From an uncultured Lachnospiraceae bacterium (GTDB lineage: Bacteria; Bacillota; Clostridia; Lachnospirales; Lachnospiraceae): a stretch of 48,953 nucleotides of DNA. How positions within the stretch are numbered: the first letter of the stretch is position 1; every line of letters starts with the position of its first letter. The notes below the pieces were generated by a model. That model was not told the DNA's origin. It worked only from the letters and a program-made list of their open reading frames with translations, and did no database searches. Made by a program: the position numbers and the translations under genes. This document shows positions 3,450 through 38,003 of this stretch, one piece after another. The stretch is from assembly GCA_905234595.1 (NCBI GenBank), contig CAJOID010000003.1, positions 1 through 48,953 on the forward strand. Direction: 5' to 3'.

Positions 3450-4087
3450 ATCTGGAGACCAGGATAGATTCTTTTATAGAATCACTTAAAAAACCGGAAC
3501 CGGAGTATATAGAGAAGCTTGCAGCTTATGCACGTACGGAACATATTCCGGTCATCAGACCGGCCATGATGGATTTCCTGCGTACGATGATACTGATCCA
3601 CAGACCAATGTCGATACTTGAGATAGGGTGCGCCATTGGTTTTTCTGCTTTATATATGAGGGAATATGCACCGGAAGGATGCCGGATCACTACTATAGAG
3701 AACTACGCTCCGCGTATATCCGCGGCAAAAGAGAATTTCGCCCGCTACGATACCGCCGGCCGGATAGAATTGCTTGAAGGCGATGCAACGGTGCTGATAA
3801 AAGATCTGCCCGGGCCCTATGATCTGATATTCATGGACGGTCCCAAAGGACAATACGTCAATATGTATGATGATATCAAGCGTCTTCAGCAGCCGGGAGG
3901 ACTGCTGATCTCCGATAATATCCTCCAGGAAGGTGACATCCTTGAAAGCCGTTATGCGGTCACGCGCAGAGACCGGACGATCCATTCACGGATGAGAGAA
4001 TATCTGTATAAACTGACACATGATGATGATTACTCGACGTCGGTACTGCCGGTTGCAGACGGCGTGACACTGAGCGTGCGTATATGA
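3446..4087 (+). CDS. SAM-dependent O-methyltransferase (TrmR-like)
   Basis: This 213-residue class I methyltransferase belongs to the catechol-O-methyltransferase-like family 3. The SAM-binding glycine loop is EIGCAIGFSALYM. ITTIEN carries the acidic ribose ligand, LLEGDA follows, and IFMDGPKGQY carries metal and substrate residues. Members next to U32 peptidases methylate 5-hydroxyuridine at tRNA position 34 (TrmR in Bacillus). The adjacent U32 gene, overlapping by 4 nt, supports a role in tRNA wobble modification. Substrate assignment rests on context. Confidence 0.85.
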   Translation: MNLETRIDSFIESLKKPEPEYIEKLAAYARTEHIPVIRPAMMDFLRTMILIHRPMSILEIGCAIGFSALYMREYAPEGCRITTIENYAPRISAAKENFARYDTAGRIELLEGDATVLIKDLPGPYDLIFMDGPKGQYVNMYDDIKRLQQPGGLLISDNILQEGDILESRYAVTRRDRTIHSRMREYLYKLTHDDDYSTSVLPVADGVTLSVRI

Positions 4088-5319
4088 ATACTATGAAGAA
4101 ACCCGAATTACTGGTTCCGGCTGCAAATCTGGAAGTTCTGAAGACCGCAGTGGATTATGGCGCGGATGCCGTATATATAGGCGGCGAGGAGTTCGGCCTG
4201 AGGGCCAAAGCGGACAACTTCTCACATGATGAGATGACAGAGGGGATCGCTTATGCACATGAGCACGGAGTCAGGGTGCATGTGACGGTGAATATCCTCG
4301 CGCACAACTATGATCTGGACGGAGTGCGCACATATCTGACGGAGCTTAAGGTCATTAAGCCGGATGCGCTGATTATAGCCGATCCGGGGATATTTACCCT
4401 TGCACGTGAGATCTGTCCGGATATAGACGTGCATATTTCCACTCAGGCCAATAACACCAACTGGGAGACGTATCTGTTCTGGTACCGTCTTGGGGCCAAA
4501 CGCGTCGTGTCGGCACGTGAACTGTCTCTGACCGAGATCCGGCAGATCAGAGAGCATATCCCGGAGGATATGGAGATAGAGAGTTTTATCCACGGAGCCA
4601 TGTGCATATCCTATTCGGGGAGATGCCTGCTCAGCAATTATTTCACGGGACGTGATGCGAACCACGGAGCATGCACCCACCCCTGCAGATGGAAGTACGC
4701 GGTCGTGGAGGAGACGAGGCCCGGTGAGTATCTTCCCGTATATGAGAATGAACGCGGTACCTATATATTTAACTCCAGAGACCTGTGTATGATCGGACAC
4801 ATACCCGAGATGATCGGGGCCGGGATCGACAGCTTCAAGATAGAGGGCCGGATGAAGACCGCTCTGTATGTAGCTACCGTGGCCAGAACCTACAGGCGTG
4901 CGATAGATGATCATATGAGCGATCCCGCTCTGTACCGTGAGCATATGGAATGGTATCTCGAGGAGATAGGCAAGTGTACGCACAGACATTTCACCACGGG
5001 ATTCTACTTCGGCAAACCCGCATCGGATGCACAGATATATGACAACAGCACATATGTGAACGACCATATCTATCTCGGAACGATCCGCGAGGTTACAGCC
5101 GACGGGCGTGCGGTATTTGAGCAGAAGAACAAATTTGCCGTCGGGGATACGATCGAACTGATGAAACGTAACTGTGAGGACAGAAAGGTCAGTGTCATCC
5201 GTCTTGAGGATGAGAACGGCATTGCCATGGAGAGTTGTCCGCATTCGAGACAGATCATATACGCCACTTTCTCGGAAATACCCGAAGCAGGCGATATCAT
5301 GCGGGTCAGGGCAGAGTGA
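4084..5319 (+). CDS. U32 family peptidase-like tRNA hydroxylation protein
   Basis: This 411-residue U32 protein begins with the TIM-barrel motif KPELLVPAANLEVLKTAVDY and DAVYIGGEEFGLRA. It contains the cysteine-bearing signature CISYSGRCLLSNY and GACTHPCRWKY, whose cysteines probably hold an iron-sulfur cluster, and then the FKIEGRMKT stretch. Family members (TrhP/YegQ, YrrN/YrrO) make 5-hydroxyuridine in tRNA from prephenate-derived chemistry rather than acting as proteases. The preceding methyltransferase would use this product. ATG at 4084 overlaps the upstream stop. Confidence 0.9.
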   Translation: MNTMKKPELLVPAANLEVLKTAVDYGADAVYIGGEEFGLRAKADNFSHDEMTEGIAYAHEHGVRVHVTVNILAHNYDLDGVRTYLTELKVIKPDALIIADPGIFTLAREICPDIDVHISTQANNTNWETYLFWYRLGAKRVVSARELSLTEIRQIREHIPEDMEIESFIHGAMCISYSGRCLLSNYFTGRDANHGACTHPCRWKYAVVEETRPGEYLPVYENERGTYIFNSRDLCMIGHIPEMIGAGIDSFKIEGRMKTALYVATVARTYRRAIDDHMSDPALYREHMEWYLEEIGKCTHRHFTTGFYFGKPASDAQIYDNSTYVNDHIYLGTIREVTADGRAVFEQKNKFAVGDTIELMKRNCEDRKVSVIRLEDENGIAMESCPHSRQIIYATFSEIPEAGDIMRVRAE

Positions 5320-7880: not shown

Positions 7881-7929
7881 TAGCGGTATCGCCAAATGGT
7901 AAGGCAACGGACTCTGACTCCGTCATTTC
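7881..7929 (+). repeat. attL core: 49-bp direct repeat (left copy)
   Basis: The 49 bases from the base before the tRNA-Gln start to just after the anticodon arm are identical to 37922-37970. One mismatch then precedes another 13 identical bases (T-loop region). The two copies are offset by 30,041 bp and bracket the integrase and relaxase genes, as expected for attachment sites of a tRNA-targeting integrase. The exact crossover point inside the repeat cannot be seen. Confidence 0.85.
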
Positions 7930-7953
7930 AAGGTTCGAATCCTTGTAGCGCTG
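7882..7953 (+). tRNA. tRNA-Gln (CTG), left copy, acceptor-stem mismatch
   Basis: This is a 72-nt cloverleaf. The acceptor is AGCGGTA, the D arm GCC/GGC, the anticodon stem ACGGA/TCCGT around loop CTCTGAC (anticodon CTG at 7914-7916), and the T arm CAAGG-TTCGAAT-CCTTG. The 3' acceptor strand is TAGCGCT with G discriminator. CCA is not encoded. The acceptor has one mismatch: G5 faces G68, whereas the right-hand copy is fully paired. Bases 7881-7929 are identical to the right copy, so this gene is probably a hybrid whose 3' part came with the mobile element. Whether it is still charged well is open. Confidence 0.9.
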
Positions 7954-7958
7954 CTAAT

Positions 7959-9106: not shown

Positions 9107-9322
9107 ATGGGTGAAATGAAATCAATGACCGGTAACGAAGACTATTCAGTACTGTCAGCCAAAGAACTGGCGGAGAGACTGCATATAGGCAGAGACAAAG
9201 CCTATGCGCTGATCAAAAGCAAGAGCTTTCCGTCTATTAAGCTTGGCGGGCGATATATTGTCACTCTGAAAGCTCTGAATGAGTGGCTGGATCAGTACGA
9301 GTATAAGACATTTGCAGTATAA
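9107..9322 (+). CDS. xis: Excisionase-type helix-turn-helix protein
   Basis: This 71-residue protein consists of a single winged helix of the HTH_17/Xis family: SAKELAERLHIGRDKAYAL, then FPSIKLGGRYIVTLKALNEW. A strong AAGGAGG site precedes the ATG. It ends 10 nt before the integrase start. Such proteins bend DNA at the element ends and steer the integrase towards excision (Tn916 Xis). A role as a general transcription factor is possible, but position and size favour excisionase. Confidence 0.88.
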   Translation: MGEMKSMTGNEDYSVLSAKELAERLHIGRDKAYALIKSKSFPSIKLGGRYIVTLKALNEWLDQYEYKTFAV

Positions 9323-9332
9323 GGAGCAGGAG

Positions 9333-10601
9333 ATGTCTGAAAGAGCCGTAAAGGGCCAGGGTTCTTTTAAAGAAAACCCTGACGGAACAATCACATATCG
9401 TAAAGGTGTAGGTCTTAAGGATGACGGACGCAGGAAAACTCTGACGGTTACCGCTAAGAATCGTGCAGTATGTATGCGTCTGATGCAGGAGAAAGAGGAT
9501 AAATGGTTCAGGACCCGCTCTAATGGTGCCATTCTTGGATCGGACACTGTTGAGGAAATGTGCTTCAGGCATCTCCAGTATCAGATGGATGGCGGGGAGC
9601 TTAAGCCAAAATCTGCTGACAGACGTGAAGTAACTATAAAGAATCAGATAAGTGGATACTTTATAGGCAAGATGCAGGTACAGGCAGTTTCTTCTTCTGA
9701 TGTTGAGTCTCATATCAGCTGCCTGATACAGAAAGGATTATCATCTTCAACCATTGTCAAAGCGCTTGATGTGATAAATGCAGCTTATGAGTGGAGCGTT
9801 ATGAGAGGCGATGTGGAGTCTAATCCGGTTCTGCCTATAAAGAAGGGAATTAAAAAGCGTCTGTCCAAACTTGATTCCAAGACAGCTTCTGATGCAGATG
9901 TTATAGTCCTGTCGGTTGAGGAAGAGACGAAGTTCCTTGAGGAATGCCTTAAACGGTGGCCCACCGGACGATACGTATATTCCGGGGGATTATTTGGTCG
10001 GCTGTTACTCCATACGGGAATGCGTGTTGGGGAGATGATCAGTCTCAGATGGCGGGATTATGACAAGGAAACGGGCTTGCTGACCATAAACAAGAGCACG
10101 GCGATGGTGCGAAACCGTGATCAGAAGGCTGGCGAGAAGAATTATATCACGTCCGTGGGAACAACCAAGAATCAAAAGGCCAGGGTAATACAGCTTAGTG
10201 AAGAAGCGGTTCATGATCTTCAACTGATATATGAAAGAATGCCCGGAAGCGCAAACTGCCTTATCTGCAGATCTAAGAACGGGAATCCTTACACGGACAC
10301 GATGATGGAGCACTGTATGTCAACTATTTATAAGCATCTTGGATTTGATTCGAGCGTGAGCGGACTTCATGTACTCCGCAGAACGTTTGCAACGAGGATG
10401 TATGATAACGGCGCCGGAGTAAAGGAGATAGCTGCATACATAGGGGATCTGGAATCAACAACGATGCAATACTACATAGCTGCAAGAAAGAAAATGAAAG
10501 TCGGGGCAACTACGAAACAGTTTGTACCGATGCCGGGAAAAGGCAACGGAGTAAAAACAGATGAAGTAAAGAGGGAAGGTAATGGCGGTACTAAAGAATA
10601 A
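9333..10601 (+). CDS. int: Tyrosine recombinase (integrase)
   Basis: This 422-residue site-specific integrase of the phage/Tn916 type begins with an arm-binding beta domain (VKGQGSFKENPDGTITYRKG). A SAM-like core-binding domain follows (about residues 65-170), then the catalytic domain. Visible catalytic residues are the Arg in HTGMRVGEMISLRW, the Lys in TTKNQKARVIQL, HxxR in HVLRRTFATRM, and the nucleophile Tyr in STTMQYYIA. The usual LGH is IGD here. I chose ATG 9333 because AGGAG lies just upstream; the longer frame from 9279 would overlap xis. It should recombine the tRNA-Gln repeats. Confidence 0.95.
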   Translation: MSERAVKGQGSFKENPDGTITYRKGVGLKDDGRRKTLTVTAKNRAVCMRLMQEKEDKWFRTRSNGAILGSDTVEEMCFRHLQYQMDGGELKPKSADRREVTIKNQISGYFIGKMQVQAVSSSDVESHISCLIQKGLSSSTIVKALDVINAAYEWSVMRGDVESNPVLPIKKGIKKRLSKLDSKTASDADVIVLSVEEETKFLEECLKRWPTGRYVYSGGLFGRLLLHTGMRVGEMISLRWRDYDKETGLLTINKSTAMVRNRDQKAGEKNYITSVGTTKNQKARVIQLSEEAVHDLQLIYERMPGSANCLICRSKNGNPYTDTMMEHCMSTIYKHLGFDSSVSGLHVLRRTFATRMYDNGAGVKEIAAYIGDLESTTMQYYIAARKKMKVGATTKQFVPMPGKGNGVKTDEVKREGNGGTKE

Positions 10602-11064
10602 AACAGCAGGGAATTATATATGTGTATCCCAGGTTATTACACATGACCACGGATTGTCTCTTGTGGAACGAGGGTTATTGCTTACCCTTTTATCTCTCCC
10701 GGACAACTGGCACCTGACGGTCAAGGGGTTGCAGCAGATACTGCCGGACGGCAAAGACAGGATAACCAACGCGCTTAACGGTCTGATAGATAAAGGCTAT
10801 GTGACCAAAGAGCAGGAACGTGGAGAAGCTGGTAAGTTCGCAACAAATATCCTGGAGGTTCATGATTCACCGATGACGGGAAACCCGGTAGCGGAAAACC
10901 CGCCAGCGGCTAAACCGTCACCGGGAAATCGGCCACAAGATTATAAATATATATCAAATAATCAAGAATACTACAAACATAAGAGAAAGCCGAATCCGTT
11001 CAATCAATACGAACAGCATACATATGACTACGAAGCTTTGGAGAAGGCACTCATCTGTAACTGA
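10582..11064 (+). CDS. Helix-turn-helix replication-type protein
   Basis: This 160-residue protein has an N-terminal winged helix (about residues 10-85: LSLVERGLLLTLLSLPDNWHL, TNALNGLIDKGYVTKE) like that of plasmid and ICE replication initiators and phage replisome organisers. A Pro-rich linker (MTGNPVAENPPAAKPSPG) and a polar tail ending near a YDYEALEKAL helix follow. It overlaps the integrase end by 20 nt and precedes parM. A role in replication of the excised circle is inferred; a transcription regulator is the alternative. Confidence 0.65.
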   Translation: MAVLKNKTAGNYICVSQVITHDHGLSLVERGLLLTLLSLPDNWHLTVKGLQQILPDGKDRITNALNGLIDKGYVTKEQERGEAGKFATNILEVHDSPMTGNPVAENPPAAKPSPGNRPQDYKYISNNQEYYKHKRKPNPFNQYEQHTYDYEALEKALICN

Positions 11065-11087
11065 TGTCGGTCAAAAAGGAGGAGATT

Positions 11088-12026
11088 ATGGACGTTAAAT
11101 GCATTCAGGGAGACAAAACTCCCGCAACTATCATAGCCGTTGACAATGGAAACGGTAACACAAAGACAGAGCATCTGCATTTTAAAAGTGGTGTGGATGT
11201 CTACATGCAGGAACCCACACTTAACAAGGATTATTTCCTGATTGATGGGAAGTATTATGTTGTGGGCGAAAGCCATATGACATATCAGGGTGATAAGACA
11301 AATTCTGATGAATGTTACATTCTGACCATGGCAGCGATAACCATGGAGCTGGAATACAGACAAATGACCACGGCACAGATAATCCTGTCGGTCGGTCTGC
11401 CACTCGGATGGTGTGGCAAAGACAAAAAGGAAGAGCTTAAAACTTATATGCTTCGGTCGCGCAGTGTAGATGTTATGCATCATGATATGAATTATCATTT
11501 CGAGATAGTTGATGTAGATGTATATCCTCAGGGGTTTGCGGCAATCTGCGGTCGGTATGCGATGAATGGGATAAACATGATAGCTGATATCGGCAACGGC
11601 ACCATAAATATGATGCAGATCAAGGATGGAATCCCGAAAGAAAGCAGCATATATACAGAAAAGATGGGAGTCGCAAGATGTGTTGATGATATCAGGAAAG
11701 AACTCTCCGAAATGTATGCCGATGATGTTCCGGAGGATATGTTTGAAAGCTATCTGATCAATGGCACTGCAGGTAAGACAGGGAAGGTTGTTGATGTCGT
11801 CAGGAGGATAGCCGGCAGCTACAGTGAAGAGGTTATTAAGAGGATCTACAGTTATGGATTTAAGGAAGATCTGATGACGCTTTATATAATCGGTGGCGGA
11901 GGACGGATACTTAAGAATTTTTCAGAGTTCTGGAAGATACCAAGGGTGATATTCATAGATGATATCTGTGCCAATGCGAAGGGGTTTGCATTACTGAGCA
12001 GTCAAAAGATTCAGAGGACAAAGTGA
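11088..12026 (+). CDS. parM: ParM/Alp-like actin-type segregation ATPase
   Basis: This 312-residue protein of the actin/Hsp70 ATPase superfamily is the plasmid ParM/StbA type. The phosphate-1 loop AVDNGNGNTK, phosphate-2 loop IADIGNGTINMM and adenosine motif YIIGGGGRIL are all present. ParM filaments push plasmid copies apart. Start ATG 11088 is preferred because AAAGGAGG stands 5 nt upstream; the ATG at 11064 overlaps the preceding stop but has no such site. The gene for its likely centromere-binding partner follows after 1 nt. A partition system on an integrated element suggests an extrachromosomal phase. Confidence 0.87.
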   Translation: MDVKCIQGDKTPATIIAVDNGNGNTKTEHLHFKSGVDVYMQEPTLNKDYFLIDGKYYVVGESHMTYQGDKTNSDECYILTMAAITMELEYRQMTTAQIILSVGLPLGWCGKDKKEELKTYMLRSRSVDVMHHDMNYHFEIVDVDVYPQGFAAICGRYAMNGINMIADIGNGTINMMQIKDGIPKESSIYTEKMGVARCVDDIRKELSEMYADDVPEDMFESYLINGTAGKTGKVVDVVRRIAGSYSEEVIKRIYSYGFKEDLMTLYIIGGGGRILKNFSEFWKIPRVIFIDDICANAKGFALLSSQKIQRTK

Positions 12027-12027
12027 G

Positions 12028-12558
12028 ATGGCGGGATGCTACAAGTGTACCAATGTCAAATTCAATATGAATGATGCCAGGCAGAAAAAGGCGTACGAGA
12101 TTCTGCAGCGTGCAAAGGGTAAGTATTCGTATGGAGTCCTGATCTCTGATGCCCTGCTGAAGGCTTACCGACAGGCACAGATACCTGCCAATCTCGTTGA
12201 AGATGATGGAACCATCATCCCAAACAACTATTTTGTCGTGGACGATAAAGGCCTGGACCATTTTGCAGATATGATGGCGGAAAGATTATTGAAGACTGAT
12301 CATATGAAACAATTGCTTGGTAGTATCGGTGAACTTGAAGATCGCATCGGAGAGATCGACGGATACATGCAACTGGGAGAAGTTTTAAAGATGAAGCCGG
12401 AAGCTACTGATGCAGATAATCGGAGCATACATGACTCATCTGAGGAGAAACAGAGCCAGGCGAATGCTTCCGGTGAGGAAACTGATATAAATGATGAATC
12501 CGTATCAAAAGGGAATGTGGAGATTTCCGATGCGATGCTTCAATTTGCGTGCGGATAA
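12028..12558 (+). CDS. parR: ParR-like centromere-binding protein
   Basis: This 176-residue protein directly follows parM. The N-terminal half (about residues 10-55: FNMNDARQKKAYEILQRAK, YGVLISDALLKAYRQ) has the ribbon-helix-helix-like look of ParR proteins. A coiled-coil stretch (LLGSIGELEDRIGEIDGYMQ) and a low-complexity acidic tail follow. The call rests on order next to parM as much as on sequence. It would bind repeated sites (parC) and the end of ParM filaments. The reading frame stays open after its stop at 12556-12558 (see the Cys-rich frame). Confidence 0.7.
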   Translation: MAGCYKCTNVKFNMNDARQKKAYEILQRAKGKYSYGVLISDALLKAYRQAQIPANLVEDDGTIIPNNYFVVDDKGLDHFADMMAERLLKTDHMKQLLGSIGELEDRIGEIDGYMQLGEVLKMKPEATDADNRSIHDSSEEKQSQANASGEETDINDESVSKGNVEISDAMLQFACG

Positions 12559-13050: not shown

Positions 13051-13431
13051 ATGCGTAAGCGAAACAAAGCCGTATATATCCGCATGAACGATGCTGAATA
13101 TGACCAGCTCCTGTCAAAGGTGGCTGAGTCGGGCGTCAGCATCCAGTCGTATATGGTAAGTGCTGCCTTGGGTGCACATCTGACTACTGCACAGGAAATG
13201 GCTGCCCTTAATGACCAGAACCGACTGTTTGCTGATATGGACAAGCAGCTCCGTGGTATGGGAACCAACTTAAACCAGCTTGCCCATACTGCCAACGCGA
13301 CAGGCTCGCTGCCGTCGCACAGGCAGTTGGAAGAGCTTGGCGATGAAGTATCTGAGCTCAGAAAGGAAATTGGAAATATATGGCGATCAACAAGACTGTC
13401 AATAAATCCTCAAAATCCCACGGGGCAATGA
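13051..13431 (+). CDS. mobC: MobC relaxosome accessory protein
   Basis: This 126-residue protein of the MobC family has an N-terminal ribbon-helix-helix (RNKAVYIRMNDAEYDQLL, VSIQSYMVSAAL) and the typical MobC helix with GTNLNQLAHTANATG. It binds near oriT and helps the relaxase nick. A GAGGAGG site precedes ATG 13051. The end overlaps the relaxase gene by 52 nt, a usual arrangement in MOBP elements. Confidence 0.93.
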   Translation: MRKRNKAVYIRMNDAEYDQLLSKVAESGVSIQSYMVSAALGAHLTTAQEMAALNDQNRLFADMDKQLRGMGTNLNQLAHTANATGSLPSHRQLEELGDEVSELRKEIGNIWRSTRLSINPQNPTGQ

Positions 13432-14660
13432 GGAACTGCATAGAGTATGTACTCAGGGATGAAAAGGTACGTGATGGATTGTGTATGGTCACCGGACCGT
13501 TCGTGGCGGAAGAGATTAACTATGATACCGTATATAATGCTTTTCTCGATGAAAAGAGGATATGGGATAAGGATTCTGCCAGGATGTATGCCCATAACAT
13601 CATATCTTTCCATAAGGATGAGAACATAACCGCAGAAGATGCGTATCAGTTTGGGATCGATTTTGCGGAGAAGTGGTTTGATGGGTTTCAGACTCTTGTG
13701 GCGGTGCATCAGGATAAGGATCATATCCATATCCACATGGTGACCAACAGCGTGAGCTACATAGATGGTCATAAACTCCATAATTCCCGGAATGACTTAC
13801 AGAGGATGAAGGATCTGACCAATCAGATGTGTATGGACCGGGGACTCACAATAGCCGTGAAAGGACATCACTTTGACGGATCGCTTATGGAGCAGTATGA
13901 AATATCGACATGGTCCAAGGATAAGTTCAATCTGCTGGTGAATGATTCTAAAAAGAGCTATCTGGCGGATTGCGGACTGGCTATAGACGGAGTCCTTGCT
14001 AAAGGATGTGAATCCAGAGAGCAGTTCATCGCAGGGATGCTTGAGGCAGGATGGAGTGTTACATGGACGGACAGCAGGAAGAATATCACATTTGAAAATG
14101 AGGATGGCAAGAAAGTAAGAGATACCAATCTTAATAAGACATTCAACTTAAATGTCGGAAAGGAGGTACTGTATGCCGAATTTGAGAGACGTAAGAACGA
14201 AAGAGAACGAATTAAGCAGCAACAGCTTGACAGAGACAGACAGCAACTATCAGATGAGCAGCTCAGACAGTACTATGCAGAAGTCGAATCAGCTGTCACC
14301 GGAGCAGGAGCTGATACGGAAGCAGTCGGATACGATCAGACAGCTGACCCGGGAGAGGGATCGACTGTTAGCAGAGGGGAGACCGGAAGACCGGGAGAAG
14401 ATTTCGACGCTTTCCTCGCAGAATTTGACGCTAGAGAACAAGATGTCGGAAATGCAGTCAGATCATCAATCCGAGATAGCAGACATGAACGCCGAAATAT
14501 CAGCATTGCGGAATCAGAATCAGTCACTAATGAACACCGTTCAATCGCTTACGAGGAGCAACGACGACTTGAGGAACAGGAATGGCTTGATGCTGAGAGA
14601 GAAGCAGGAGAAGTTGGAGGACGATCTTGCGTCAGCTTTGAATCTGATATCGATCTCTGA
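13380..14660 (+). CDS. mobA: MOBP-type relaxase (MobA/VirD2 family)
   Basis: This 426-residue relaxase nicks oriT and leads the transferred strand. The N-terminal nuclease domain begins MAINKTVNKSSKSHGAM and includes a candidate catalytic Tyr in CIEYVL. It has the RMYAHNIISFHKDE motif and the metal-binding three-His motif HIHIH (H115, H117, H119). The C-terminal 160 residues are charged and of low complexity. From 14173 on, that part shares its DNA with the next gene in another frame. Cognate oriT-like DNA lies upstream of mobC. Confidence 0.93.
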   Translation: MAINKTVNKSSKSHGAMRNCIEYVLRDEKVRDGLCMVTGPFVAEEINYDTVYNAFLDEKRIWDKDSARMYAHNIISFHKDENITAEDAYQFGIDFAEKWFDGFQTLVAVHQDKDHIHIHMVTNSVSYIDGHKLHNSRNDLQRMKDLTNQMCMDRGLTIAVKGHHFDGSLMEQYEISTWSKDKFNLLVNDSKKSYLADCGLAIDGVLAKGCESREQFIAGMLEAGWSVTWTDSRKNITFENEDGKKVRDTNLNKTFNLNVGKEVLYAEFERRKNERERIKQQQLDRDRQQLSDEQLRQYYAEVESAVTGAGADTEAVGYDQTADPGEGSTVSRGETGRPGEDFDAFLAEFDAREQDVGNAVRSSIRDSRHERRNISIAESESVTNEHRSIAYEEQRRLEEQEWLDAEREAGEVGGRSCVSFESDIDL

Positions 14661-15639
14661 TAAGAAGCATAAAGAGGAAATAGCCCGGCTTAAGGCTGAT
14701 TATGAGAAACGCATCAAGGCAGCTGAGGATCACGCGGCTGAAGTGGAATCCAGATGTGCCAGGGATAACGAGATGGCAGCGAAAGCCAGAAGAGAAGGGG
14801 AAGAATATCGGGATAAGTATGAACAACTGCTTGAAAAAGAAGAGGCACATATCGATGAACTGGCTGATCAGAAGATCGCAGATGAAAAGAAGTATCTTCG
14901 TGAAACTAAAAAGGCGGAGGTTGAGGCGATCAGAATTGCGTGTGACAAAAAGATAGAGAGGCACAGAGTTTTGTTTGCCTTAATGTACTCCGCAAAGGAA
15001 ACCTGGCATGTCGTTGCCTTTGCATTCTGCATCATGTGGGATTTTATCCAGACGCTGTCTTCCACATATCTGCGCGGACAGTTTGTCGAGTTTGGAGGCT
15101 ATATAAAGGAATATGTCGGGTTCGTCAGGTCACATACCGGTTTATGGGTCAAGGCTCTGGCGGATAAGGCGCTACTGATATCGGATGCAAGGGTGGCAGC
15201 CGTTGTATACTGGATAATAACGATCTTGATGGCGTTAGTGCTTGTGCTGTTTTTCTATGGTGTACCGCTTGGAGTCATTGTTGGCGGTGGCAGAGCATAT
15301 CTAAGCAGTAAGAAGTATGATAAGATCGCCAGATGGCTTATGATCAGCTCCGCGATTGCGGTTATAGCCTTATCATCCGAATGTGTCGGAGTTCGACTGC
15401 CGTTAAATGCGATCCTCCTGTGGCTGATCATACAGGTGGCATATCCCGTGATCCGGTATATACTGATTCCGTTTGGGAGCATGGTATGCGTCAACATATC
15501 CGAAATGTCAGAGGATAGCAGGAAGGAACTCATTACTGCAATCATATATGCAGTACTGATCATAGGAGGGGCCTGGATCATTCTTTGGGCGACATCATCA
15601 TTTGTAAGGGAAGTTTCAGCGATGATGACACCTCAATAA
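14173..15639 (+). CDS. Coiled-coil membrane protein (DUF6040-like), overlaps relaxase
   Basis: This 488-residue protein starts at ATG 14173, 6 nt after a strong AAGGAGG inside the relaxase gene; an earlier ATG at 14152 lacks one. Residues 30-255 form a long charged coiled coil (ERDRLLAEGR, KLEDDLASAL, AEVEAIRIACDKK). About five membrane helices follow between residues 270 and 480. Proteins of this layout follow relaxases on many Clostridia elements and are called DUF6040; the function is unknown. A role linking the relaxosome to the membrane is inference. The first 488 nt overlap the relaxase gene in a different frame. Confidence 0.8.
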   Translation: MPNLRDVRTKENELSSNSLTETDSNYQMSSSDSTMQKSNQLSPEQELIRKQSDTIRQLTRERDRLLAEGRPEDREKISTLSSQNLTLENKMSEMQSDHQSEIADMNAEISALRNQNQSLMNTVQSLTRSNDDLRNRNGLMLREKQEKLEDDLASALNLISISDKKHKEEIARLKADYEKRIKAAEDHAAEVESRCARDNEMAAKARREGEEYRDKYEQLLEKEEAHIDELADQKIADEKKYLRETKKAEVEAIRIACDKKIERHRVLFALMYSAKETWHVVAFAFCIMWDFIQTLSSTYLRGQFVEFGGYIKEYVGFVRSHTGLWVKALADKALLISDARVAAVVYWIITILMALVLVLFFYGVPLGVIVGGGRAYLSSKKYDKIARWLMISSAIAVIALSSECVGVRLPLNAILLWLIIQVAYPVIRYILIPFGSMVCVNISEMSEDSRKELITAIIYAVLIIGGAWIILWATSSFVREVSAMMTPQ

Positions 15640-15807: not shown

Positions 15808-16767
15808 ATGCTAAAGAAGAAACTCTCCATAGAAGAGCAGATAGAAGATTTAAAGTCAAAGAATGTGAAATTTGAACTGTACAATGTTGAGGAAGCAAAA
15901 AAATTCCTTCAGTATAACAACTATTATTTTAAACTTAAGTCTTATGCTCGGAATTATACGAAATATAGTAAAACCGAGGATAAGAATAAGTATATTAATC
16001 TGGATTTTGCCTATCTGGTAGAACTTAGTTCATTAGATAGTCTTCTGAGAAGAGTAATTGTGGGATTATGTCTTGATATTGAACACGTTATCAAAACAAG
16101 ATTTATGCGGGATATAACTAATAATACAAAAGAAGATGGATATGAAATCGTAAAAAAATATATAGACATGGATTACTCGGTGTTAGTTGCCCTTTATTCG
16201 AATAAGGATAGGTCGGCGACAAAAGAACTTATTGAGAAGATAAAGGATAATGAAGAAGAAATACCGGTTTGGAAAATGATAGAAGTTCTTTCGCTTGGTC
16301 GTTTTATAGAGTTATACACTCTGTATTATGATACCTATGGCGGGAGTTCTTACTCTTCATATCTTGGGAGCGTCAAATTTTTACGAAATGCTGCAGCACA
16401 TAATACCTGCTTGTTGAATTCATTAAGAAAACCGTACGCGATAAAGATTAACAAGTGTATGGATATCATGGATGCGTTGTCTAAGTCTAAGAAATTCGAA
16501 ACGAGTTATAAAACCAAGATGGAAAATCCGGTTATACATGATTTTGTGGTAACGCTGTTTGTATATTATGATGCGCTTAATACAGTGGGAAACAGAAGTG
16601 TTCGCGACAGAGGAATGGCGGAGATACAACAATTATTCTTTGATACCATGTTGCGAAATAAGGATTATTTTGTTAAGAATGATGTAATAGTTTCCGATTA
16701 TAGATATATATGTCAGGTTATTGAATACTTAGAGAACTGCAGAAATAAGCCTGTTTTGAAAAAATGA
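15808..16767 (+). CDS. abiF: Abi_2/AbiF-type HEPN abortive infection protein
   Basis: This 319-residue protein of the Abi_2 (AbiD/AbiF) family carries the N-terminal signature KKKLSIEEQIEDLKSKNVKF and YNNYYFKLKSYARNY. The HEPN-type ribonuclease motif RxxxxH is RNAAAH (R193, H198). Such proteins cut RNA and stop growth upon phage infection. The gene is markedly AT-rich against its neighbours, a sign of separate acquisition. Its TGA stop is followed at once by the promoter of a small structured RNA, as in loci with the abiF RNA motif, in which the RNA is thought to act with or against the protein. Confidence 0.88.
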   Translation: MLKKKLSIEEQIEDLKSKNVKFELYNVEEAKKFLQYNNYYFKLKSYARNYTKYSKTEDKNKYINLDFAYLVELSSLDSLLRRVIVGLCLDIEHVIKTRFMRDITNNTKEDGYEIVKKYIDMDYSVLVALYSNKDRSATKELIEKIKDNEEEIPVWKMIEVLSLGRFIELYTLYYDTYGGSSYSSYLGSVKFLRNAAAHNTCLLNSLRKPYAIKINKCMDIMDALSKSKKFETSYKTKMENPVIHDFVVTLFVYYDALNTVGNRSVRDRGMAEIQQLFFDTMLRNKDYFVKNDVIVSDYRYICQVIEYLENCRNKPVLKK

Positions 16768-24066: not shown

Positions 24067-25338
24067 ATGAGAATAGCAGACAGTACAGTAAATATGTTAT
24101 CAGGAAGAAATTATACGCAGACCGGAAGACGCACCGATGGAGGGTATGCGAACAGCTTTATGGGAATGATCGGTTCGTTTGACACAAAAAAGAGCGGTTC
24201 TATGGCAAAGGACACTTATCAAACGGATAAGAATAATGCCGGAATGGGCACGTATAACATGGACGATATCGGATATTTTAAAGGACTTGGGAAAATAACT
24301 TCAGGGAGCCTGTTTGGGGCAGGTTCAGGCGCTTCAGCCTTTCAGAATAATACCCTTAATGCGATGTTTAAGAGATTTGCTTCTTACGGGATGATGGGTG
24401 GAGCAGGCATAGGCGGCTATTCTATGAATATGACCACATATTCTGAAACCGAAGAAACGGGATTTCATGCAAATGGCAGGGCTTGTACGGAGGACGGCCG
24501 GACGATTGATTTTAACGTAAATATCTTAATGAGCAGAAGCTACATGGAGTATATGAATGTGAGTATCCCGCCGATGACTGATGCACTGTGCGATCCTCTT
24601 GTTGTGAATATAGGTTCTGATACGGCGGACGTAAGGGATCAGACATTTAAGTTTGATCTTGATGCTGACGGGGTTGAAGATGAAATATCCATGCTGGGAA
24701 AGGGCTCGGGATTTCTTGCGTTAGATAAAAACGAAGACGGGAAAATCAATGATGGCAGCGAATTGTTTGGAACAAAGAGCGGTGACGGATTCGGAGATCT
24801 TCGTGAATATGACAGCGACGGAAATGGGTGGATAGATGAAAACGATGATGTTTTCTCGAAGCTCAAGGTCTGGTGTAAGGATGAAAACGGTAAAGATATA
24901 CTGATGGATCTGAAGGAGGCCGATATCGGAGCCATATATCTCGGGGAGCAGCAGACAGAGTTTTCACTTGGTGGCGCGGACGGCTACAGAGATGGAGTGA
25001 TCAGATCCACAGGGGTTTTCATTCGGGAGAGTACCGGCGACGCCGGTACAGTACAGCATGTGGATCTGTCATTGAAACAAAACGGATTGGGACTGAGGGT
25101 CAGCGGTGATGATACAACCTCGGAAATAAGCACATCCGTTAATCGTAACAGGCAGAGTAATGCCGCCAGAAGGCGGGAAGAAAGACGACGTAAGGAAGCT
25201 AAGGCAAGGAAGAAAAGAGCTGATGAAAAAGCAGCTGAAGAGGCTCTGTATAAAAAACGGATGGAGCATAAGGAATACATGGAAAAGCTTCAGGAGAAGC
25301 AGTTTATGGAGAGGAAGGATGCAGGGTATAAACTCTAA
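24067..25338 (+). CDS. Cargo protein with EF-hand/RTX-type calcium loops
   Basis: This 423-residue protein has a glycine- and Met-rich N-terminal region (1-120) without signal peptide. A block with three Asp-rich calcium-loop motifs follows: FDLDADGVEDE (196-206), DKNEDGKINDGSEL (220-233), DSDGNGWIDENDD (249-261). The order, and the LFG and KVW that follow, match the calcium module seen in large RTX-type and adhesin proteins. The last 60 residues are a highly basic, Arg/Lys-rich coiled coil. A calcium-dependent surface or secreted role is inferred. GTGAGGGTGGACAG lies before ATG. It overlaps the next gene by 20 nt. Confidence 0.82.
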   Translation: MRIADSTVNMLSGRNYTQTGRRTDGGYANSFMGMIGSFDTKKSGSMAKDTYQTDKNNAGMGTYNMDDIGYFKGLGKITSGSLFGAGSGASAFQNNTLNAMFKRFASYGMMGGAGIGGYSMNMTTYSETEETGFHANGRACTEDGRTIDFNVNILMSRSYMEYMNVSIPPMTDALCDPLVVNIGSDTADVRDQTFKFDLDADGVEDEISMLGKGSGFLALDKNEDGKINDGSELFGTKSGDGFGDLREYDSDGNGWIDENDDVFSKLKVWCKDENGKDILMDLKEADIGAIYLGEQQTEFSLGGADGYRDGVIRSTGVFIRESTGDAGTVQHVDLSLKQNGLGLRVSGDDTTSEISTSVNRNRQSNAARRREERRRKEAKARKKRADEKAAEEALYKKRMEHKEYMEKLQEKQFMERKDAGYKL

Positions 25339-26362
25339 TGATACATACGAGCTTGGCTATTATGACCGAAGATACGGCCACCAGACTGTCTCCATGAGAA
25401 AAGACGAGGAAGGGAACCTTGTCAAGATCAATCAGGACGGTACAAAATCAGACATGTTGGAGCTTAAGGGGGATTTCGTTTCTGAAGCTCCGATCCCCTG
25501 TGAAATCTACAGTGATATGAAAAACATGAAATCGGGATATCCGGTGATCGGGTGGAATAATGTGTTTCATGAATCATTTGACCTGATGGAGGACTATTAT
25601 TCCGGTAGGGCATCTGCAGAAGATGTATCTGCATATATTAGAAAGGTCTGCAGATTAAACAATGCCAGCAAAGCACAGATATCCGAAACATTAGGCACGA
25701 TGTACGAGTATATGTCCAGAGCAAACACCAGAAACGCAGTAGAGAATAATCTGAATGAGGCGGAGAGGCTCTTTATTGAAGCTGGGATGAAAGAGGATAC
25801 CGCCGATCATTTCAGTAACCGTAAGGGCGGCATATACTACAATGCCGATCACTATTATGCCTGCGAGAACATACAGGAGATCATAAAGAAAACGATCAAT
25901 GAACTGTCTGAACAATATGGTGTAGATCAGCCGGATTACGCGGAATTAGATAAGAGCACGAGATTCCCGGATGGTGGGATTACCTATAATGGTGTCTGGA
26001 ATCAGAAAACATATCAGCTGATCCATTATCATGAGATGCCTGACACAGAATTCATAGATAACGGATTTGTTCCGTCGAAAAGCTTTCTGTATTGTGAGGT
26101 TGGTTTTCTTGTGAATGATACTGTGAGCAGCGAAACTATTGTATCCGATATAAAGGAATATATCAGCGGCAAATTAGGAAGAAATCTGTTATCAGGAAGA
26201 AATAATCTGTTGCTGGAATTCCAGAAGCGAGGTCTTGAAGCAGGGAGCCATAACGAAAAGAGAAATCGTATCCATAACTATATGAATGAGAACGGCATAC
26301 CTGTAAAGAATACCGCAGACCGTTTGTGGCTTTCTGATTATTTTGGCTTTGTTATGCTTTGA
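25319..26362 (+). CDS. Uncharacterised cargo protein (347 aa)
   Basis: Not recognised. It is a soluble-looking, acidic protein with many Tyr and Asn, no signal peptide and no membrane helix. The frame is open further upstream (25160), but that part overlaps the calcium-loop gene and is basic shadow sequence; ATG 25319, next to GAGAGGAAGG, starts MQGINSNDTYELGYYDRR. The middle is helical (SAYIRKVCRLNNASKAQISE, IIKKTINELSEQYG). It overlaps the preceding gene, implying coupled translation and perhaps a complex. Confidence 0.75.
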   Translation: MQGINSNDTYELGYYDRRYGHQTVSMRKDEEGNLVKINQDGTKSDMLELKGDFVSEAPIPCEIYSDMKNMKSGYPVIGWNNVFHESFDLMEDYYSGRASAEDVSAYIRKVCRLNNASKAQISETLGTMYEYMSRANTRNAVENNLNEAERLFIEAGMKEDTADHFSNRKGGIYYNADHYYACENIQEIIKKTINELSEQYGVDQPDYAELDKSTRFPDGGITYNGVWNQKTYQLIHYHEMPDTEFIDNGFVPSKSFLYCEVGFLVNDTVSSETIVSDIKEYISGKLGRNLLSGRNNLLLEFQKRGLEAGSHNEKRNRIHNYMNENGIPVKNTADRLWLSDYFGFVML

Positions 26363-37921: not shown

Positions 37922-37970
37922 TAGCGGTATCGCCAAATGGTAAGGCAACGGACTCTGACTCCGTCATTTC
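37922..37970 (+). repeat. attR core: 49-bp direct repeat (right copy)
   Basis: Identical to 7881-7929. It marks the right boundary of the integrated element. Confidence 0.85.
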
Positions 37971-37994
37971 TAGGTTCGAATCCTAGTACCGCTG
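37923..37994 (+). tRNA. tRNA-Gln (CTG), right copy, fully paired
   Basis: This is a 72-nt cloverleaf with fully complementary acceptor stem AGCGGTA/TACCGCT, D arm GCC/GGC, anticodon stem ACGGA/TCCGT, anticodon CTG at 37955-37957, T arm CTAGG/CCTAG and discriminator G. CCA is not encoded. Its 3' part and terminator adjoin the chromosome, and its promoter and 5' part adjoin the element. It is likely the working copy. Confidence 0.93.
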
Positions 37995-38003
37995 CTTATG
38001 GAT

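Follow-up and report, generated by a model that had tools for sequence, protein, structure and literature searches.

In the window, by which we mean the whole 48,953-nt stretch of Lachnospiraceae DNA that was analysed, the 3' end of a MOBP-type relaxase gene encodes two proteins at once, with frame 0 of the overlap specifying the relaxase tail and frame +1 the N-terminal 162 aa of a second protein. A sequence-only reading of this DNA had described the 488-nt same-strand overlap of the two genes, and the open reading frames, the conservation in relatives and the frame-resolved substitutions agree in showing the dual coding to be genuine; both the overlap and the +1 gene are almost certainly real. 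As many relatives do the same, the overlap is a conserved version of the known plasmid mobA/mobB arrangement. Position, build and precedent suggest that the second gene is probably a MobB-like, membrane-anchored mobilization accessory gene in a mobC-mobA-mobB module of a helper-dependent element. The features of the locus are listed in Table 1.

Table 1. Features of the relaxase locus in the window (positions of the whole stretch).
Feature	Position	Strand	Basis or remark
NikA/MobC-like relaxosome accessory gene	13051..13431	+	PF21983 NikA-like, 49.6 bits; PF05713 MobC, 38.8 bits
MOBP-type relaxase gene (mobA-like), 426 aa	13380..14660	+	PF03432
Shine-Dalgarno sequence AAGGAGG of the second gene	14160..14166	+	6 nt 5' of ATG 14173
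Dual-coding overlap, 488 nt	14173..14660	+	third-position bias lost; both frames constrained when pooled
Putative MobB-like accessory gene, 488 aa	14173..15639	+	coiled coil and C-terminal membrane segments; DUF6040 relation
NDDLRNRNGL block of the second protein	14560..14589	+	kept in relatives (alignment); within the overlap
Predicted membrane segments of the second protein	15169..15609	+	Kyte-Doolittle windows >1.6

The relaxase scores well above the cut-off for its family model (99 bits; cut-off 24.6), and its histidine motif (H110, D112, H115, H117 and H119) is invariant among 23 aligned sequences. Y23 is likewise unchanged across these sequences and is assumed, from its N-terminal position, to be the catalytic tyrosine. 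The 3' end of the NikA/MobC-like gene shares 52 nt with the relaxase start. The +1 ORF is open over 14152-15639 and reaches its 488 aa when counted from ATG 14173. An earlier in-frame ATG at 14152 is not preceded by a Shine-Dalgarno (SD) sequence and is common only to locus L020 among the compared loci, while the position of ATG 14173 is common to the other compared relatives. The bases of the SD sequence also encode Lys261-Glu262 of the relaxase. The motif AAGG[AG]G was found in relaxase frame 0 at all 25 loci of set 1, read as AAG GAG or AAG GGG; for comparison, AAG accounts for 318 of 639 Lys codons and GAG for 167 of 494 Glu codons in the upstream part of the relaxases. Since the set-1 loci are related, this conservation does not represent 25 independent events. 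The assignment of AAGGAGG to the second gene was upheld.

A family-wide relaxase search of 397 genomes gave matches in 172, and 32 loci were examined, 30 of them among the matches listed (L021-L050, the window copy included) together with L103 and L104. A +1 ORF was present at the same relaxase site in 21 of the 23 relaxases with at least 38% identity among the loci examined, window included. In these carriers (L021-L040 and L104), the ORF begins at the position that matches relaxase codon 264-265 and is preceded by an SD sequence that spells Lys-Glu or Lys-Gly in the relaxase frame. L036 was counted as a carrier although its contig ends inside the ORF, L034 was represented only by its downstream open frame as its relaxase is frameshifted upstream, and the start in L039, a contig-end fragment, was assigned by eye. 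L105 (G214:C106), with a relaxase match of residues 1-117 at a contig end, was left out of the analysis because this match looks like the other part of the L039 gene. L042 is a degraded copy or fragment that retains the SD sequence and a 129-codon ORF, and the L103 relaxase (46% identity) has no +1 ORF. Among the nine listed matches with 30-37% identity, the +1 ORF was found in two (L041 and L043) of eight assessable relaxases, L046 ending too early to be judged, and was not found in L044, L045 and L047-L050. The second gene is therefore not universal, as it is missing from L103 and from these six distant relaxases; in three of the six (L044, L048 and L050) a following gene encodes a type IV coupling protein.

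Homologues were also inspected for early stops in one frame and for a relaxase end near 14170, and neither check refuted the dual coding; the relatives either keep an open overlap of 293-599 nt in both frames or have a completely nested +1 gene, with L036 cut by the end of its contig. The second gene lies wholly within the relaxase gene at six loci (L035, L037, L038, L040, L043 and L056), and its product ranges from 112 to 488 aa in set 1, leaving out L036 because of the contig end. The ORF is present, too, on plasmids of Waltera and C. difficile and on one contig labelled as phage. No overlap of this kind was found in pTRACA73, in the Cetobacterium and Fusobacterium plasmids or in contig L057; by inspection, the Cetobacterium and Fusobacterium plasmids have a separate downstream gene for a coil-plus-membrane protein. 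Viral contigs yielded no relative when scanned once with the second protein and once with the L023 relaxase, and a profile scan of them led to four distant loci, of which L061 and L062 have a nested +1 ORF and L063 and L064 have none. A class-wide search of 391 genomes at E 1e-40 matched only G000 and G108. One scan of genome contigs returned a single locus, L020, which is the same DNA as L058. At positions 3238-4100 of L020, the closest relative, unrelated DNA with a frame that, by eye, is ATPase-like stands in place of the first 16 relaxase codons; this relaxase copy is therefore probably disrupted or chimeric, with the downstream overlap intact.

Frame-resolved substitution analysis, which had been suggested as a check on the overlap, was run on the relatives with a counting scheme of our own, in which changes are sorted by their effect in both frames and intervals are obtained by codon bootstrap. 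The scheme follows the idea of overlapping-gene dN/dS tools. Only chosen pairs were compared; the pooled MOBP pairs were kept separate by locus, none being shared, and L025 was left out of pooling as nearly identical to L023. Between L023 and L024, substitutions at the first, second and third positions of relaxase codons numbered 10, 5 and 55 in the 265 codons upstream versus 4, 8 and 4 in the 148 codons of the overlap, and between L028 and L029 they numbered 15, 15 and 88 upstream versus 27, 21 and 22 in the overlap. For the nested class (L035/L037), the counts were 6, 1 and 45 in 266 upstream codons, 1, 0 and 1 in the 111 codons of the nested overlap and 12, 6 and 40 in the 154 codons past the nested stop. 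When counted in 33-codon steps, third-position changes drop at codon 265, which is the +1 start, and in the nested class they recover within the step containing the nested stop (codon 377).

Pooled over five MOBP pairs, the overlap gave a +1 ratio (dNN/dNS) of 0.54 (95% interval 0.39-0.73) and a relaxase ratio (dNN/dSN) of 0.69 (0.48-0.96), versus 0.91 (0.61-1.39) and 0.09 (0.07-0.12), respectively, in the pooled upstream controls. Relaxase-synonymous divergence was 0.116 in the overlap versus 0.343 upstream. Addition of the window/L020 pair to the pool gave 0.56 (0.44-0.74) for the +1 frame and 0.77 (0.57-1.04) for the relaxase; this pair alone gave 0.54 (0.30-0.96) and a relaxase ratio of 0.97 (0.49-1.95), which is indistinguishable from neutral. 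Single pairs scatter widely, with a +1 ratio of 1.09 (0.29-4.61) for L023/L024 alone. As an internal control, the L037/L038 tail past the nested gene had ratios of 1.28 (0.67-2.96) in the +1 frame and 0.21 (0.11-0.37) in the relaxase frame. The overlap thus loses its third-position bias, and the +1 frame is under purifying selection when pairs are pooled; the relaxase tail is constrained weakly, and undetectably so in the window's own lineage. The proposal that the second frame is the constrained one holds in that its pooled ratio is the lower of the two, but it has to be qualified, since the relaxase tail is also under selection across the family.

The coiled coil attributed to the second product is supported by a long predicted helix, nearly continuous over residues 43-300, in a low-confidence AlphaFold2 model (two sequences, mean pLDDT 59.8), and hydrophobic segments lie between residues 333 and 479. 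This membrane part is absent from some relatives (L029, L035, L037, L038 and L040). The description of the gene as DUF6040-like applies well to relatives, whose proteins match PF19506 at 3.2e-44 (L052), 5.6e-31 (L022), 1.1e-22 (L030), 2.1e-15 (L033) and 1.9e-10 (L032). For the window protein itself it is less secure, with 14.6 bits in hmmscan, below the cut-off of 23.4, and 38.2 bits for the stretch 14857-15462 in the genome search; the L020 protein, 52% identical to it, had no PF19506 match at E up to 10. Likewise, no DUF334 (PF03904), MbeB (PF04837) or MbeD (PF04899) match of the window protein was found up to E = 10, so that its likeness to MobB rests on position, frame and build. Matches of second proteins to PHROGs and NCBIfam models were weak and coiled-coil-like and were set aside.

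Within the family, 33 of 299 genomes contained DUF6040, and a search confined to open-licence literature found no paper on it. Among 30 listed DUF6040 loci (L065-L094), six have a MOBP relaxase and 14 have a long relaxase ORF whose 3' end is overlapped in frame +1 by the DUF6040 gene; all six of these 14 relaxases that were scanned against Pfam are MobA_MobL (PF03389). Of the remaining loci, L075 has a shorter overlapped ORF, and the other nine are truncated or broken or offer no relaxase that can be read. In L070 (859-1218), a further +1 ORF, some 119 codons long, is nested just 5' of DUF6040, with equivalents in L065, L072 and L079. Four pooled MobA_MobL pairs gave, for this first nested ORF, a +1 ratio of 0.41 (0.19-0.81) and a relaxase ratio of 1.48 (0.62-4.60), which is not below one, and for the DUF6040 overlap a +1 ratio of 0.42 (0.18-0.91) and a relaxase ratio of 0.57 (0.25-1.18). 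One deeper pair had +1 ratios that were not significant (0.62, 0.37-1.06, and 0.85, 0.45-1.84) and a relaxase ratio of 2.80 (1.74-5.21) in the region of the first nested ORF.

These results bear on three other explanations of the overlap. The +1 frame might be open by chance of composition, and with shuffled codon order the window tail did stay open in an unremarkable 33% of trials; since few +1 stops arise from the codons of the tail, an open frame by itself says little. With synonymous-codon shuffling, however, the frame stayed open in only 0.22% of 5000 trials for the window (0.06% to 26% over 23 loci), and the SD sequence, start and selection are conserved in relatives, so the case for dual coding is carried by conservation and by the substitution pattern; the synonymous shuffles and these conservation tests rule chance out to near certainty. 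The low relaxase-synonymous rate could instead reflect a conserved nucleic-acid element, as the very low divergence of the L035/L037 overlap (two differences in 111 codons) might suggest, but changes are sorted by their effect on +1 codons, the boundaries coincide with the +1 start and stop, and +1 protein similarity is detectable in alignments between distant loci, which makes this explanation very improbable. Finally, only the second gene might matter in the overlap, the relaxase tail being an open extension that is tolerated but functionless in itself. The window/L020 pair, with its neutral relaxase ratio beside a constrained +1 ratio, and the relaxase ratios over the first nested MobA_MobL ORF are consistent with this, as is the fact that relaxase tails differ in length and have a high content of K, R, E, D and Q. 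On the other hand, the relaxase ratio of the five pooled MOBP pairs lies below one, even if the interval reaches past one once the window pair is included, and most MOBP overlaps show no strong rise in position-1 changes; a passive tail is thus considered unlikely.

Long dual coding of this kind had been called rare in bacteria, which is misleading here, as relaxase/mobB overlaps are known from RSF1010, a MOBP5 module, ColE1 and staphylococcal plasmids. In the mobC-mobA-mobB modules of pC221 and pS194, the gene order is as in the window, the MobC gene overlaps a homologous relaxase gene, and mobB starts in frame +1 at the aligned Lys-Glu/Lys-Gly site behind an SD sequence; by inspection, MobB has a coiled coil and a membrane part, the same build as the window protein. 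mobB is needed for pC221 mobilization. The relaxase gene of pC221 (3608-4555) carries a +1 ORF, about 221-230 codons long, that codes for a coil and a membrane part; in staphylococcal and related plasmids this gene is annotated as DUF334. In an hhalign profile comparison, staphylococcal MobA aligns with the relaxases studied here at 99.95 and pC221 Lys229 falls opposite Lys261 of the window relaxase, so the second gene begins at a homologous place. The overlap in five DUF334-type plasmids examined is about 206-290 nt, compared with 488 nt in the window, and staphylococcal MobB, as DUF334, has no domain detectably in common with the second protein. In ColE1, the mobilization accessory genes mbeB and mbeD lie in frame +1 inside mbeA (MOBP), each behind an SD-like sequence, but they are two short nested genes of other families (PF04837 and PF04899). 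DUF6040 genes occur in Clostridia, and the C. difficile plasmid pCD-METRO, for example, has a related second gene with the same open +1 frame, from a GTG behind the conserved SD sequence, and its annotated start is, by this reading, 104 codons too late; in passages of its description the relaxase is discussed and the next gene is called hypothetical (PMC6992631). The likeness to RSF1010 is known from description, mobA being overlapped there by mobB and repB according to a passage in PMC5572225, and similar passages report overlaps among mobA, mobB and mobC in a MOBP5 module (PMC3832669) and partial overlaps among them in pKKS49 (PMC6157413).

The surroundings of the locus were also examined. 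A tyrosine integrase gene (9279-10598), an actin-like segregation gene (11064-12026) with ALP_N and MreB-like matches and a 176-aa gene without Pfam match lie just 5' of the mobilization genes (region 9279-12558), as in an integrated element that has plasmid-like partition genes. Directly 3' of the second gene is an Abi_2 (abortive-infection-like) gene (15808-16767), possibly defence cargo. Two similar tRNA-Gln(CTG) genes (7882-7954 and 37923-37995), separated by some 30 kb, lie on either side of the integrase and mobilization region; when the tRNA-Gln end repeat was sought as an attachment site, only the two tRNA genes matched. The window holds a further same-strand overlap of 179 nt (25160-25338) between ORFs 24067-25338 and 25160-26362, neither with a Pfam match. 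The window's own genome, which is 89% complete, contained no match for a coupling protein; given this completeness, the absence is weak evidence, but it fits a helper-dependent, mobilizable element.

Expression of the two genes may be envisaged as follows. An internal ribosome-binding site at the end of the relaxase catalytic domain, in bases that also encode Lys-Glu, would allow ribosomes starting there to read the +1 frame into the MobB-like protein, with the first 162 coil residues encoded in the relaxase tail and the C-terminal membrane helices encoded past the relaxase stop. The second protein could then anchor the relaxosome at the membrane and assist in passing the relaxase-DNA complex on to a helper element's coupling protein and type IV secretion system, as reported for the MobB of R1162/RSF1010; the title of one cited work states that the transport signals of the R1162 relaxase require MobB (PMC3297438). 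The overlap would keep both products made together. The second gene might alternatively encode a membrane protein that serves entry exclusion, partition, regulation or some other function, its overlap with the relaxase gene being incidental. ColE1 MbeD, nested in the same frame, is annotated with mobilization/exclusion, and the actin-like gene lies near the module in the window element, both of which would agree with such a role, but the tie of the gene to relaxase genes at one site in frame +1, and the way in which DUF6040 accompanies two relaxase classes, make it doubtful and favour a mobilization function.

The overlapped part of second genes is usually missing from annotation. In eight annotated records, the second gene as annotated shares 0-92 nt with the relaxase gene. 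Its frame can be followed further upstream to a start with an SD sequence before it (the one closest to the usual site was taken), which gives an overlap of 206-485 nt and 65-154 extra residues. In Agathobacter rectalis, similarity at the protein level (59%) reaches back to record position 128341, which is 219 nt upstream of the annotated start. The DUF6040 model begins at residue 111 of L052, 103 of L102 and 90 of L101, and the DUF334 model at residue 109 of pS194 MobB; these Pfam models are limited to what lies close to the relaxase stop or past it and leave out most of the overlapped N-terminal part. Their late starts may be an artefact of truncated gene models or may reflect weaker conservation of the coil.

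On a wider view, there is a roughly even chance that several relaxase classes carry a standard second message, in which an SD sequence within a Lys-Glu pair, where the catalytic domain ends, leads to a +1 coiled-coil membrane protein. The homology of this site extends from staphylococci to Lachnospiraceae, and MobA/MobL-type relaxases and ColE1 have sites that correspond to it. DUF6040 and DUF334 would then be families of MobB whose N-terminal parts gene models and Pfam domains consistently lack, long overlaps being avoided in annotation. In the eight records, the second protein is 65 to 154 residues short in the gene models near relaxases, and work on mobilization that uses annotated, truncated genes would deal with proteins without most of their coiled coil. 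The locus provides a quantified and boundary-exact case of bacterial dual coding over about 490 nt, and up to 599 nt in relatives, and it ties the uncharacterised DUF6040 family to a likely function.
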